From: Thermaerobacter sp. PB12/4term
Lineage (GTDB): Bacteria > Bacillota > Sulfobacillia > Thermaerobacterales > Thermaerobacteraceae
Reading direction: 5' to 3'
NCBI RefSeq assembly: GCF_003403315.2
Contig: NZ_CP048407.1
Span: 558,001 to 622,000, forward strand
DNA length: 64,000 nt
Below, one piece after another: positions 53,431 through 60,960 of the stretch. The translations under genes were made by a program, and so were the position numbers. The first letter of the stretch is position 1; each line of letters starts with the position of its first letter. Under the pieces are notes generated by a model. That model did no database searches, had not been told where the DNA came from, and was given only the letters and a program-made list of their open reading frames with translations.

Positions 53431-53587
53431 TCTGTTCCGCGCCGCCTGGCAGGAACTGGCTTGGTCGCCCCGAATTGTTCTTGCACCTCTTGTACGTCTT
53501 GAGGTGGACGACCCCCCGCATCGTCCCCCAGCCCAGCGAGGCCGGGCGGGCGGGTCGGGCCCCATACCGTCCCCGGGAGGGATGTGC

Positions 53588-55821
53588 ATGGAGCGGTGGA
53601 GGCGTTACGTGCCCGCGTTGCTGGCAGGGCTCCTGATCCTGGCCCTGGCCGGCAACGTGGCGGCAGGGGTCGCGGCGGATCCCCGTCACGACTTCACGGA
53701 GGAGGGCGGGCAGCCGGCGGTTGGCGGCACGGGGTACGCCATCGTGGAGCTGGTCGACCCGCCGGCCGCTTCGTATACGGGCGGCATCGGCAAGCTGAAG
53801 GCCACCAAGCCTGCCCCGGGCAAGAAGCTGGACGCCAACAGCCGGGATGTGCAGGCGTATGTGCAATACCTGCGCGACCGGCACGAGCAGATCAAGGCGG
53901 CGATGCGGTCGGCCGCCCCCAAGGCCCGGGTGGTGCGGGAGTTCTTCCTGACGGGCAACGCCCTGGTGGTGGAGCTGAACGGCCACAATCCGGGCCAGCT
54001 GGCGGGGATCCGGGGCGTCAAGCGGGTGAGCGAGAGCTGGCTCTACCGGCCCGCCATGAACGTCAGCGCCGGGTTGATCGGGGCCGGTGCCCTCTGGACC
54101 AAGCTGGGCGACGGCCAGATGGACCAGGGCCGGGACCGCGCGGGCGAGGGCATCAAGGTGGGGGTCATCGACTCGGGGATCGACCGGACCCCTTCTTCCG
54201 GTGCAAGGACTACGACGGCGACGGGGACGTGGACGAGAAGGACATCCCGTCGAAGGTGTACGCCAGCGGCGTGGCGGGCGATCCCTCCCAGGTGCTGGTG
54301 AGCGACCACGGCACCCACGTGGCCGGGACCATCGCCGGCTGCGTGACGACCCTGCAGGAGGGACCTGTTCGGGACACCTTGAGCGGCATCGCACCGGCGG
54401 CCCGATTGTACGACTACAACGTGTTCCCCGGCTTCGGGGCCGGCTGGGTGGCCTACGGGGGCTCGGCCTTCAGCCACGACATCGCGGCCGCCCTGGAAGA
54501 TGCGGTGCGGGACGGCATCGACGTGGTCAACATGAGCCTGGGCGGCGGCGTCCAGGGGCCCCACGACTACCTGGCCGAGGCGGTCAACGCGGCTGTGGAC
54601 GCCGGCGTGGTGGTGGTGGTGGCGGCCGGCAACTCGGGGCCGGGCGACATGACGGTGGAATCGCCCGGCAGCGCCGCGCGGGCCATCACCGTGGGGGCGA
54701 CCACCAACGCCCATTACATCGGCATCCCGGTCAGCGCCGGGGGGCGTGACTTCGGCGCCGCCACGGGCGACTTCGCCCCCTTCGGCAGGGTGACCTCGCC
54801 CTACGCACCGGCCCGGGACGGCTCGGCACGGCCCGAGGAAGCCTGCTACCCGCTGGTGAACGGGGCGGAGGTGCGGGGCAAGATCGCCCTCGTGAAGCGC
54901 GGCAGCTGCACCTTCACCACCAAGGTGCGCAATGCCGAAGCCGCCGGTGCCACGGGGGTGCTGATCATCAACAACGTGGCGGGTGATCCCGTCGCCCCGG
55001 GGAGCGACGGGACGGCGCCGGCGCCCACCATCCCTGCCGCTATGGTGTCGATGACCGACGGCCAGTTCCTGATCGACCTGCTGGCTGCCGATCCCCAGGC
55101 CACGGTGACCATCGACGGGACGGTGGAGACGGAGATCCGCACCGGCTCTGGCGACATCCTGGCCGGGTTCTCGTCCCGTGGTCCCACGCCCTACACCTAT
55201 CTGATCAAGCCCGATGTCACTGCGCCCGGGGTCAACATCTACTCGTCGGTCTTCCACGGCCAGTGGGCCATGTTCCAGGGGACCAGCATGGCGACGCCCC
55301 ATGTGGCGGGTGCGGCCGCTCTGCTGCTCCAGCTGCACCCCGGCTGGTCGCCGGCCGACGTCAAGTCGGCCCTGGTCAACACGGCCGCCCGCGTGGTCAA
55401 GGACCCGGTGAAGGGCACGTATGATCCCGGCGTGCTGGCCCGCGGGGGCGGGCGGATCGATCTGGCCCGGGCCGATGCCACGCCGCTCACCCTGGACCCG
55501 GTCAGCGTGAGCTTCGGCTACTTCAACGGCAACGCGCCGGTCAGCGGCCGCCAGGACATCACCCTGCACAACGTCAGCAGCTCCACCCAGACCTGCACGG
55601 TCACGGTGGTGCGGGATGCGGCCGACCCGGCCGTCACCGTGTCGGCGGAGCAGGTCACCCTGGCGGCGGGCGCCACCGCGACCCTGACGGTGACCATGGA
55701 CGGTGGCCGCAGCGACCGGCTGCCCAGTGGCGACTATGACGGCGAGCTGGTCCTGGACTGCGGCGGCAAGGTGCTGCGGGCACCCTGGTGGCTGCGGGTG
55801 AACCGTGAGGCCAAGCCGTAA
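53588..55821 (+). CDS. Subtilisin-like serine protease, interrupted by a frameshift
   Basis: A secreted S8 protease. Signal peptide: MERWRRYVPALLAGLLILAL then ending AAGVAA. An I9-type propeptide follows (about residues 45-155). The catalytic Asp in VGVIDSGID is in one frame. The His in DHGTHVAGTIAG and the Ser in QGTSMATPHVAGAAALL are in the frame one base back. The shift lies at the run of four C at 54189-54192; one extra C would restore DRTPFFRCKDYDGDGD. A PA domain (KIALVKRGSCTFTTKV) is inserted before the Ser, and a C-terminal beta domain follows. The ATG at 53588 has GGAGGG upstream. It is either a recent pseudogene or a homopolymer sequencing error. Confidence 0.85.
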
Positions 55822-57434: not shown

Positions 57435-57454
57435 ATGCAGTTTAATGCAGTTTA
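57435..57454. repeat. Tandem decamer repeat
   Basis: ATGCAGTTTA occurs twice in direct tandem (57435-57444 and 57445-57454), overlapping the stop of the EamA gene and lying about 95 bases upstream of the YojF-BshB2 start. Might be an operator. Confidence 0.5.
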
Positions 57455-58638
57455 ACCCTTCGCCAGAAGGCGCGCCTCTCCCTGCGCAGCGGGGCCGGGC
57501 ACCAGGTCCACCGGGGCGCGGCGGCCCACGGCCACCACGGCCGCCACCGCGAGGGCCGCCAGCACCGTGATGCCGCCCACCGGCTCACCCAGGCCCACCC
57601 TGGCGGCCAGCAGGGTCAGGAAGGGCTGCAGCAGCTGGAGCTGGCTGGTGCGGGCCACGCCGGCCAGGGCCATGGCCCGGTACCACAGGACGAACCCGGC
57701 CAGCTGGGTCACCCCGGTGATGTACATCCACGCCAGCCAGGCCAGCACCACCTTGTCCAAGGGCACCGGTGCGGGGGAAGGGAGGGCCCCGCCGGCGGCG
57801 CCCGCAGCCGGACCTGCGGGCGCCACCGGTCCTGGCACCGGTCCTGCTGGCGGCCCGGCCACCGGCCCGGCAGCGCCGGCGGCGCCGGGGAGGGCAGTCA
57901 TGGCGGCCGTGGCGGCCAGGGTGACGGGCAGGGCCACCCACAACCCCCAGGCGATGGGGAGGAACCACTATGGCGGCGGGCCAGGCGGCCGCCTGCGGCG
58001 TGGCCGGCGGCCGCCGCCACGATGGCCGCCAGCATCCAGAGGTCGGCCGGCCGGGGCTTGCCGGCGCCCATGTAGACCGCAAATCCGGTGACCACCCCAC
58101 TGCCCGCCAGCGCGGCCATCCAGAAGCGGCCCGACGGGCGCTCCCCGGCCCGCCACGTGGCGAAGCCCGAGGTTAGCAGCGGGAGCAGGCCCAGGAGCAC
58201 GGCGCCGTGGGCGGACGGAAGGCGGGTCAGGGCCAGGGTGGAAAACCACGGAAATACGGTGACGGTGCCGAAGGCCACCAGCAGCACCCCCGGCCAGTCG
58301 TCCCGGGGCGGCCACACCGGCCCGCAGGGTCTCCGGCCGCCGGGGCACCGCCGGGCCGCCCCGGGATTCGGGGTGTTCCGGGCCTTCCGCCGGTTGCGGG
58401 GACTCCGGCCCGTCAGGATCCCGGCCGCCAGGGCGGCCAGCACCGCGGCGCCCGCGGCCCGGCCGGGTCCCACCAGCCCCGGCGGCAGGACCTCGAGAGC
58501 CAGCCGGGTGGCGGGCAGCGTCAGGCTGAAGAGGGCGACGGCCAGAAGGCCGAGGGTTGCTCCCAGCAGGCCCTGGCGCGAGTCCGGCTGCCGGGGCGGA
58601 TGGCCGGTCGTGGGGGCGGTAGTCGAGGCCGCGGGCAC
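57452..58638 (-). CDS. EamA/DMT-family transporter, interrupted by a frameshift
   Basis: The N-terminal half (from the GTG at 58638) holds five or six spans with LGLLAVALFSLTLPATRLAL, PSAHGAVLLGLLPLLTSGFA and the end of domain one. The C-terminal half is in another frame and starts after position about 57964 with FLPIAWGLWVALPVTL, continuing with LAWMYITGVTQLAGFVLWYR and LLQPFLTLLAARVGLGEPV, the classic EamA end. Adding one base within 57964-57972 joins the frames as LARRHS-WFLPIAWG. A Gly/Pro-rich loop is also inserted in each half. Drug/metabolite exporter by family; substrate unknown. Pseudogene or sequencing error. Confidence 0.75.
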
Positions 58639-58788: not shown

Positions 58789-60096
58789 TTAGCCAAGCGC
58801 CCGCAGGTCCCGGACCACGCCGTCCAGGGTCCGGGCGGTGGCGGGGTCGAGCGCCGCCAGGGCCTGCGCCTCCACCTCCATGGCGCTGAGATAGAGCCGG
58901 GCCTGCAACGCCTTCCGAGCCTGGCTGCGGGCCGCGCGGGCCAGGGTCAGGGCCCGCCGGTACCGGCCGGTCGCCAGTTCCAGGGAGGCCAGGTCCGTCA
59001 GGGCGCTGGCGATCCCGTCGGTCCGCCCCGCCCGCCGGTAAGCCCGCAGGCAGTCGAGCAGCCGCCGGCGGCCTGCCCGGAAGGCCCCTTGCCGGATCTG
59101 CACCAGGGCCAGGTCGTGGTGGGCCAGGAGGAGCCGTTCGGGGTCCCGTCCCCGGTACAAGCGGATGGCCCGTTCCAGGTGGTAGGCGGCCAGATCCAGC
59201 CGGCCCAGGGCACAGCAGCAGCAGCCGAGACCGTGATGGCAAGCCGCCACCAGGCTGCGCGGCAGGCCCCGCACCGGTACCGGCACCGGAAGCGCCACCG
59301 GCGGCGGGGCGGTCCGTGCAGGAGGGCCGGCCGGGCCGGTCCAGTCCGGCGGGGCGGCGGGCTCCACGGCACACCCGGCGGAAGCCGCGGTTGCGCTCGC
59401 CGGCCCGGTTCCTCCGGCACCGGCCAGCCCCCCGGGCAGGCCCACGGCGTAGGCAGCGGCAGCCTCCTCGTACGCCCCCTGGCGGAACAGGGTGCTGCCA
59501 AGGGCCACGTGGGCACGGACCCGGTCGGCCGGGCGGGTGGCCGCCGCCGCGGCCAGCCGGAAGGCCTCCGCGGCCACGGCCAGTTCCTCCCGCTGGAAGG
59601 CCAGCTTGCCCCGGGTGTAGTGGAGACGGAAGGCCGTCCCGGGCGGGCAGCGGTCCAGGGGGACGCGGGGCAGCAGCTGGAGGGCGGCAAACAGGTGCTG
59701 GCTGGCGTCGTCCGGTCGATTCCCGGAGGCCAGGGCGTAGGCCAGCTCCACGTGCACCGCCAGAAGGAGTGGCGAGTCGTCCTCGTGCTGGAGCAGTTCG
59801 AGGGCCAGGCGATAGGACTCCACGGCCTCGGCGTACCGCCGGCGGCCGGCATACCGGCGGGCCCGCCGGACGTAGTCATGGATCACCCGGCTGCGGGTGA
59901 AGGCGTCTTCATCGCCCAGGAAGTAGGCCACGGGTTTGCCGAGACGGCCGGCCAGAAGCTGCAGGGTCGGCAGCGGCGGCACCACCTCGTTGGCCTCGAT
60001 GCGGCTGATGTACGAGCGGTCAAAGAGTCCGGCGGCCAGCTGTTCCTGGGTCATGCCCAGCTCGCGGCGCCGGGCACGGATGCGGTCGCCGATCAT
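58789..60096 (-). CDS. HTH-TPR transcriptional regulator (RRNPP-like peptide receptor candidate)
   Basis: 435 residues. An N-terminal XRE helix-turn-helix (residues 1-65: RRRELGMTQEQLAAGLFDRS, then YISRIEANEVVPPLPTLQLLAGRL) is followed by tetratricopeptide-like helices over residues 75-435, interrupted by a Pro/Ala-rich loop (about 225-275). HTH plus a long TPR array is the architecture of RRNPP regulators (PlcR, PrgX, NprR, ComR) that bind secreted signalling peptides. The ATG lies 150 bases from, and divergent to, a small exported propeptide gene. The DNA target and ligand are inferred, not shown. Confidence 0.85.
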   Translation of the reverse strand: MIGDRIRARRRELGMTQEQLAAGLFDRSYISRIEANEVVPPLPTLQLLAGRLGKPVAYFLGDEDAFTRSRVIHDYVRRARRYAGRRRYAEAVESYRLALELLQHEDDSPLLLAVHVELAYALASGNRPDDASQHLFAALQLLPRVPLDRCPPGTAFRLHYTRGKLAFQREELAVAAEAFRLAAAAATRPADRVRAHVALGSTLFRQGAYEEAAAAYAVGLPGGLAGAGGTGPASATAASAGCAVEPAAPPDWTGPAGPPARTAPPPVALPVPVPVRGLPRSLVAACHHGLGCCCCALGRLDLAAYHLERAIRLYRGRDPERLLLAHHDLALVQIRQGAFRAGRRRLLDCLRAYRRAGRTDGIASALTDLASLELATGRYRRALTLARAARSQARKALQARLYLSAMEVEAQALAALDPATARTLDGVVRDLRALG

Positions 60097-60156
60097 GGGC
60101 GGCCCTCCCTTCGCGATGCGGCGGCGGCCCGGATCGCGCCGTGCAGCCCGTGGCGT

Positions 60157-60168
60157 TCACGCCCGTGA
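60157..60168. promoter_or_regulatory. Candidate operator between the regulator and propeptide genes
   Basis: Inverted repeat TCACG-CC-CGTGA in the 150-bp divergent region. Only the symmetry and position support it. Confidence 0.35.
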
Positions 60169-60246
60169 GGGGCCGGCACGCCGTGGACAGGCGGCCCTGC
60201 CTCATCCTGGACATCGATACTCCCACCGTGGCCGGAGGGTGAGGAC

Positions 60247-60501
60247 ATGATCAGGGTTCGGTGGCTGGCGGCGGCAACCCTGTTGACATGGCTGACATGG
60301 TGGGCGGTGGCCGGAGCCGGCTTGACGGGCCGGGCGGTCGCTGGGGGTGCCGGGTTGGGCGGCCCGGCGGGACCGGTGACCGGGCTCGGGCACGAGTCCC
60401 CCGGCGCGGAGCTGCGGGCCGACCTCATGGGGCCCGGCATCCCTGACATGTGGCGGCTGGCCGACCTGATGGGACCCGGGGTTCCGGACATGTGGAGCTA
60501 G
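60247..60501 (+). CDS. Exported signalling-peptide precursor candidate with two C-terminal repeats
   Basis: 84 residues; ATG preceded by GGAGGGTGAGG. Basic start MIRVRW, then a hydrophobic stretch to about residue 24 as in an export signal. A Gly-rich spacer follows. The C-terminal 27 residues are two near-identical units: ADLMGPGIPDMWRL (58-71) and ADLMGPGVPDMWS (72-84). The two DNA copies differ at several third positions but only once (Ile/Val) in protein up to the Trp, so selection seems to act on the peptide. The gene is divergent from an HTH-TPR regulator and has its own terminator. The likely product is one or two secreted pheromones; the mature form is unknown. Confidence 0.8.
   Translation: MIRVRWLAAATLLTWLTWWAVAGAGLTGRAVAGGAGLGGPAGPVTGLGHESPGAELRADLMGPGIPDMWRLADLMGPGVPDMWS
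60418..60501 (+). repeat. Two 42-bp coding repeats (pheromone-like units)
   Basis: 60418-60459 and 60460-60501 encode the same peptide core with changes mostly at synonymous third positions. Confidence 0.85.
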
Positions 60502-60528
60502 GTCTGCCCACCCGAAGGCCCCCATGAG

Positions 60529-60561
60529 CGGCGGCGGTGCGCTGGCACCGCCGCCGCGGCT
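60529..60561 (+). terminator. Terminator after the propeptide gene
   Basis: A 12-bp stem, CGGCGGCGGTGC with GCACCGCCGCCG, 4-base loop, followed by CGGCTTTTA. Confidence 0.75.
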
Positions 60562-60618: not shown

Positions 60619-60960
60619 ATGGCCGGTAAAAGGTTGAACGGGCATAGCCGCCCGGGCGGTGCCGGTCGGGCGGGAGCCGAACCCGGCCGCGCGGCGGCCG
60701 GCACCCGCGGCACCGGCAAGGCCGAGGGGGAGGAGGAGCCCGCCGGGGTCCCGGACGGCGGTGAGCGCGAAGCGGTGGCAGCGGGGGGAGGCGGTGCCGG
60801 CGGCGCCGTGTGGAATGCGGTGCAGGCGCCGCTGCACGAGATCGTCGACCTGGCCCGGGACCTGGAACGGCATCTGGAAGGCGCCCACGGGGCGCGGGCC
60901 CACCGGTTGCGCCAGCTGGCGGAGGAAGTGGTGGCAAGGCTCCGTCCCGGCGAGGAGTGA
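60619..60960 (+). CDS. Small hypothetical protein
   Basis: 113 residues with an ATG behind GGAGGG. The first 60 residues are Gly/Ala/Glu-rich and low in complexity. The last 50 residues (AVWNAVQAPLHEIVDLARDL, then ERHLEGAHGARAHRLRQLAE) look like two amphipathic helices. I recognise no family. Lies downstream of the propeptide terminator, so it is probably transcribed separately. Confidence 0.5.
   Translation: MAGKRLNGHSRPGGAGRAGAEPGRAAAGTRGTGKAEGEEEPAGVPDGGEREAVAAGGGGAGGAVWNAVQAPLHEIVDLARDLERHLEGAHGARAHRLRQLAEEVVARLRPGEE

Follow-up and report, generated by a model that had tools for sequence, protein, structure and literature searches.

A divergent gene pair in the 64,000-nucleotide window, the whole stretch analysed here from the single-contig, 2.82-Mb Thermaerobacter genome G000, probably constitutes a new RRNPP-type pheromone/receptor signalling system that, judging from its sequence, would be auto-regulated at its own promoter. 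Computational analysis reveals the gene pair itself, a tandem repeat and the selection acting on it, an operator-like site, the joint loss of the components in a relative and the fold of the receptor. The divergent pair is common to G000, G001 and G003, all Thermaerobacter, and to G004 (MAG ZC4RG37, locus L051), which belongs to another genus of the Thermaerobacteraceae. Window coordinates, strands and supporting evidence of the features are as follows.

58789-60096, minus strand: HTH-TPR receptor/regulator, 435 aa (Pfam HTH_3 1.1e-11, TPR_12 2.4e-15; orthologs in G001, G003 and G004)
59920-60081, minus strand: HTH_3 DNA-binding domain, residues 6-59 (Pfam HTH_3 1.1e-11)
58792-59904, minus strand: TPR array of eight helix pairs, residues 65-435 (secondary structure of the AlphaFold model, Pfam)
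59263-59433, minus strand: residues 222-278, a disordered, Pro/Ala-rich insertion interrupting the TPR array (alignment; missing from G004)
60097-60246, no strand: divergent promoter region of 150 bp between the precursor and receptor genes
60157-60185, plus strand: candidate operator, double palindrome TCACGCCCGTGAGGGGCCGGCACGCCGTG (conserved columns, fixed distance to the peptide start)
60234-60239, plus strand: RBS GGAGGG of the peptide gene (GGAGG or GGGAGG also precedes the start in G001, G003 and G004)
60247-60501, plus strand: putative pheromone precursor gene, 84 aa (orthologs in G001 (88%), G003 and G004; conservation pattern)
60247-60339, plus strand: export-like N-terminal segment, residues 1-31 (sequence, with AxA motifs at which cleavage may occur)
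60340-60417, plus strand: precursor spacer (near-neutral evolution over residues 26-56, G000 versus G001)
60418-60453, plus strand: putative pheromone repeat 1, ADLMGPGIPDMW (sequence repeat)
60460-60495, plus strand: putative pheromone repeat 2, ADLMGPGVPDMW (sequence repeat)
60528-60557, plus strand: G+C hairpin of 13 bp, 3' of the stop codon, likely terminator (-40.7 kcal/mol, z -3.9)
About 2492250-2492830 of G000 contig C1 (L169 1380-1960): decayed second pair (closest to G003)

The original prediction placed an 84-aa ORF divergently to an HTH-TPR regulator across a 150-bp gap, and these coordinates are confirmed. The good RBS that it described is the GGAGGG listed above; with its RBS, its length and its distance to the receptor gene, the ORF lies within the bounds set for RRNPP propeptides (10-100 aa, less than 400 bp away). 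The C-terminus of the protein reads ADLMGPGIPDMW-RL-ADLMGPGVPDMW-S, i.e., both predicted ADLMGPG[IV]PDMW copies are present with a period of 42 bp, and they do differ mainly synonymously (five of the six differing sites of the 36-nt cores). The window contains 526 open stretches between 60 and 200 aa long, and an internal repeat of 11/12 occurs in this ORF alone; shuffling the protein 3000 times gave at most 8/12. Two further predictions hold in part. The supposedly export-like, hydrophobic N-terminus is indeed basic and moderately hydrophobic, but it falls below the strict hydropathy cut-off, which counts against the RRNPP reading; the precursor N-termini of G003 and G004 pass the same filter. 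The terminator expected after the small gene corresponds to a strong G+C hairpin and is likely, but its T-run is short (four T), and a scan for terminators did not call this hairpin. Farther downstream, a conserved 113-aa ORF (60619-60960, plus strand) lies between the peptide gene and a Zur-like gene; it is present in G001 and G003, was not found in T. marianensis (G002) and has no Pfam or NCBIfam match.

Looking for the small ORF beside orthologous regulators, as had been proposed, recovered the ORF with its repeats in three further species belonging to two genera. In all four pairs the genes are divergent, with 128-152 bp from start codon to start codon. Between G001 and G000 the receptor is 97% and the peptide 88% identical, whereas the G003 precursor carries four copies (three ADLMGPEIPEL and one ADLMGPGVPEL) and that of G004 two LADWMGPGVLD copies. 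Repeat numbers in G000, G001, G003 and G004 are thus 2, 2, 4 and 2, around the core AD[LW]MGP[GE][IV]. This variation across species, in which the core is kept and copy number and flanks change, is by analogy typical of pheromones. In G004, 15 more residues follow the last repeat, which counts against the RRNPP reading. Nucleotide changes between G000 and G001 are distributed unevenly: 0/84 in the repeats versus 15/93 in the spacer (Fisher p = 4e-5), with dN 0.175 and dS 0.197 over spacer residues 26-56. At the level of these sequences, the repeats are evidently under purifying selection and lie near the C-terminus of the precursor, as required of a family member. Unchanged repeats beside a near-neutral spacer are what one would expect if the C-terminal repeats were the product of a propeptide. 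A pattern scan for the tandem repeat in 154 genomes of the class returned G000, G001, G003 and G004 plus five others, the latter rejected as chance on inspection of the matched sequences. The same scan gave 12 matches in viral contigs and none in phages, and a plasmid search found receptor matches at the HTH level only.

The divergent promoter region contains a candidate operator, a double palindrome composed of CAC-N4-GTG and then CAC-N3-GTG, the second beginning 19 bp after the start of the first. Columns identical in the four genomes make up 19/29 of the operator versus 32/121 elsewhere in the intergenic region (p = 1.1e-4). It lies 60-61 bp from the peptide start codon in 4/4 pairs, whereas the receptor start is found at distances between 39 and 62 bp. 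Across five whole genomes, perfect matches occur only at the four intact pairs, from which the pattern was derived and which match by construction, and at a relict pair in G000, which is an independent match. Other operator-like sites carry two or three mismatches, the two best in G000 falling inside long open frames, and we propose no further target for a wider operator regulon. A conserved site phased to the peptide start and, in its perfect form, confined within the five genomes to the pairs and the relict points to auto-regulation of the precursor, which, on these sequence grounds, would be the best-supported output.

The predicted XRE HTH and long TPR array of the regulator are borne out by HTH_3 and several TPR matches. 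With 435 aa and TPR repeats, the protein agrees with the receptor definition of 250-500 aa with tetratricopeptide repeats given in PMC10075063, and HTH_3 at residues 6-59 supplies the HTH expected of transcription-factor members. Residues 1-70 show zero nonsynonymous changes between G000 and G001, whereas the insertion has dN close to dS and pLDDT below 50 at residues 226-271. The AlphaFold model (pLDDT 87.8, pTM 0.77) comprises the HTH and eight TPR-like helix pairs. The original prediction hinged on a TPR peptide-binding groove, and the eight-pair superhelix of the model matches both NprR and Rap: Z is 23.8 against apo NprR (5dbk; 312 residues, 3.7 A) and 23.5 against Rap with CSF peptide (4gyo), and phage Rap proteins were also matched. 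The best solved-structure match, however, is eukaryotic LGN, a peptide-binding TPR protein, with Z 27.8; as it scores above NprR and Rap, which counts against the RRNPP reading, the fold by itself is no proof of RRNPP membership. The A helices lining the groove and the B helices are equally conserved, which also counts against it. At the sequence level, an HMM built from the four receptor orthologs matched a single RRNPP receptor, PlcR, at E 7.6e-6 over residues 3-91 (HTH and first TPR). Collectively, the modelled fold is supportive, fitting peptide binding and NprR, Rap and PlcR, though it is not unique to RRNPP proteins.

In T. marianensis, two receptor fragments are left and the peptide gene is absent, although the neighbourhood (LmbE-like, EamA-like and Zur-like genes and an ABC transporter) is kept. 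Comparison of these genomes shows that the peptide gene, the regulator and the putative DNA control site are kept and lost together among relatives. The joint loss bears on the strongest alternative, in which the small gene encodes a secreted peptide whose tandem active units make it an antimicrobial, surface-active or structural effector, while the HTH-TPR protein serves just as its local regulator and answers to another signal. Tandem repeats and export would suit an effector as well, and LGN-like TPR arrays bind many ligands, but instead of being cationic, the short repeat core is acidic and rich in Pro and Gly, and the neighbourhood, made up of an EamA transporter, an LmbE-like deacetylase, a Zur-like regulator and an ABC transporter, shows on inspection no immunity or RiPP-modification gene. 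Together with the loss of receptor and peptide alike, this makes an effector improbable. The EamA-like transporter gene downstream of the receptor (57452-58638, minus strand) is apparently frameshifted in the window and intact in G001; the frameshift may mark either a pseudogene or a sequencing error.

The relict lies at 2.492 Mb of G000, between tRNA-Val and what we take, from its sequence, to be a manganese catalase gene. What is left of it is the first receptor codons, the operator and a precursor whose frame is broken, and each of these resembles G003 most closely. In G003 the putative catalase gene also lies 3' of the intact pair, and in G004 its 3' end comes before the Zur gene; neither G001 nor T. 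marianensis has it. This recurrent company, at the G003 pair, at the G000 relict and near Zur in G004, could suggest that pair and catalase gene form an accessory block reporting oxidative or stationary-phase stress instead of cell density; we consider this very unlikely, as the intact pair stands without catalase at the locus in G000 and G001, and G001 has no catalase gene. Least credible of all is that the 84-aa ORF is no gene but a chance frame in G+C-rich DNA, or that the antisense ORF (60093-60491, minus strand) is the real one. The antisense register is open in 4/4 genomes, and codon-position G+C gives no more than moderate guidance, but two genera share the start, RBS, stop and repeats, the repeat copies differ at plus-frame third positions (5/6 synonymous) and the conserved candidate operator is phased to the plus-strand start codon. 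An RRNPP-type pair, as originally predicted, is the reading supported by conservation, pheromone-like peptide variation, the TPR superhelix and the joint loss in T. marianensis.

For such an RRNPP-type pair, secretion and processing of the precursor, import and binding of the peptide, the sign of regulation and the output are all inferred, and the circuit would run as follows. The 84-aa precursor would be exported through Sec and cut by extracellular proteases, yielding two nearly identical peptides built around DLMGPG[IV]P. Once cell density is high, the peptide would re-enter via an oligopeptide permease (Opp-type) and bind the TPR groove of the HTH-TPR protein, altering the binding of the receptor dimer to the double palindrome that precedes the precursor gene by 60 bp. 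In this way the circuit would control both its precursor and its receptor, and probably a small number of weaker sites as well. G000 has 11 SBP_bac_5 (oligopeptide-binding) matches; proteins of this family import other solutes too, which counts against the RRNPP reading. The window also contains a secreted subtilase-like protease (S8; 53584-55821, plus strand) with an apparent frameshift near 54.18 kb. We rejected it as a dedicated processing protease, as it occupies the same place only in G000 and G001 and is apparently frameshifted in G000.

A comparison with known systems shows that NprR-NprX of the Bacillus cereus group likewise combines an HTH with a long canonical TPR array of similar length; NprR 5dbk is the best quorum-sensing structural match (Z 23.8), at about 12% identity over the aligned structure, yet the Thermaerobacter pair is divergent and its signal sequence unrelated. 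PlcR of PlcR-PapR is likewise an HTH-TPR transcription factor, but it has 293 aa and fewer TPRs, and papR lies downstream. The PapR signal also starts with ADL, a superficial match to the Thermaerobacter repeat. Rap proteins have the TPR fold in common with the receptor, but act via protein-protein contacts, without a DNA-binding HTH. In Rgg-SHP and ComR-XIP systems, an HTH-TPR-like regulator lies near a small pheromone gene, often divergently, and the propeptides are very short and exported by PptAB. Rgg/ComR TPRs are degenerate and duplicated pheromones are not reported for these systems; large NprR propeptides often contain repeated pheromones, and in Bacillales the pheromone gene comes directly after that of the receptor (PMC9765709). 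Rap-Phr propeptides of Phi3T and phi105 contain at least two pheromone copies processed by extracellular proteases, the pheromones being different and shorter, e.g., SRGHTS and ERPVGT (PMC11343458). As to orthology with the NprR, PlcR or Rap subfamilies, the PlcR match is confined to the HTH region, and our receptor tree is drawn from the class to which the Thermaerobacteraceae belong.

This midpoint-rooted tree comprises 36 receptors of the class, five of which, from Sulfobacillus-type genomes (three genera of family f8, the family of S. acidophilus, G037), are accompanied by a divergent, secreted-looking ORF of 41-47 aa that has an RBS and whose C-terminus is PITDVYHMVL or DVTNPGVS. These five group with the four Thermaerobacteraceae receptors and one receptor with a downstream secreted-looking ORF, whereas the remaining 26 have no such ORF wherever the same filter was applied. 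The branch separating the peptide-paired receptors is weak (57/92, midpoint-rooted), and their clustering, to which near-copies contribute, was equalled in 0/500 shuffles. The divergent mini-ORFs beside HTH-TPR genes lie at L114 1198-1323 and L115 1166-1291 (both minus strand), in L134 (minus strand), and at L130 2585-2728 and L131 2591-2734 (both plus strand), and Sulfobacillus-type intergenic regions contain the palindromes TACTAACAAATGTTAGTA (L131) and TGTTATGTAACA (L114). In G010, a 67-aa secreted-looking, acidic, Pro/Gly-rich ORF (L033 2816-3019, plus strand) directly follows an HTH-TPR gene. It is conceivable, if somewhat less than evenly likely, that Thermaerobacter, Sulfobacillus and their kin, thermophiles and acidophiles that branch deeply within the Bacillota, have an RRNPP clade of their own, with divergent propeptides and independently evolved signals of LMGPG, DVYHMVL and DVTNPGVS types. 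If true, RRNPP-type quorum sensing would be old in the phylum and not confined to Bacillales and Lactobacillales.

The RRNPP kind of system is known, and so are tandem pheromones within it (PMC9765709, PMC11343458); PMC10075063 proposed 21 new RRNPP subfamilies in 2023. The LMGPG-type signal appears undescribed in the literature searched: as the original prediction had it, no described RRNPP pheromone is known to have an LMGPGxPDMW core, and our search for the peptide motif found no paper. Thermaerobacter is absent from the RRNPP survey and phylogeny literature searched, with an unnamed entry possible in the supplementary tables of PMC10075063. That survey of complete Firmicutes genomes had few chances to meet the pair, because the complete T. 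marianensis genome has lost it. No described peptide quorum sensing was found for this lineage in the literature searched. The pair would offer, for an under-explored deep lineage, a pheromone that can be tested directly, with synthetic peptides built around DLMGPG[IV]P, together with its receptor, which is likely heat-stable and should help structural work. The three natural peptide variants and their matching receptors would form a small specificity series, for which the conserved candidate operator may serve as a ready reporter.
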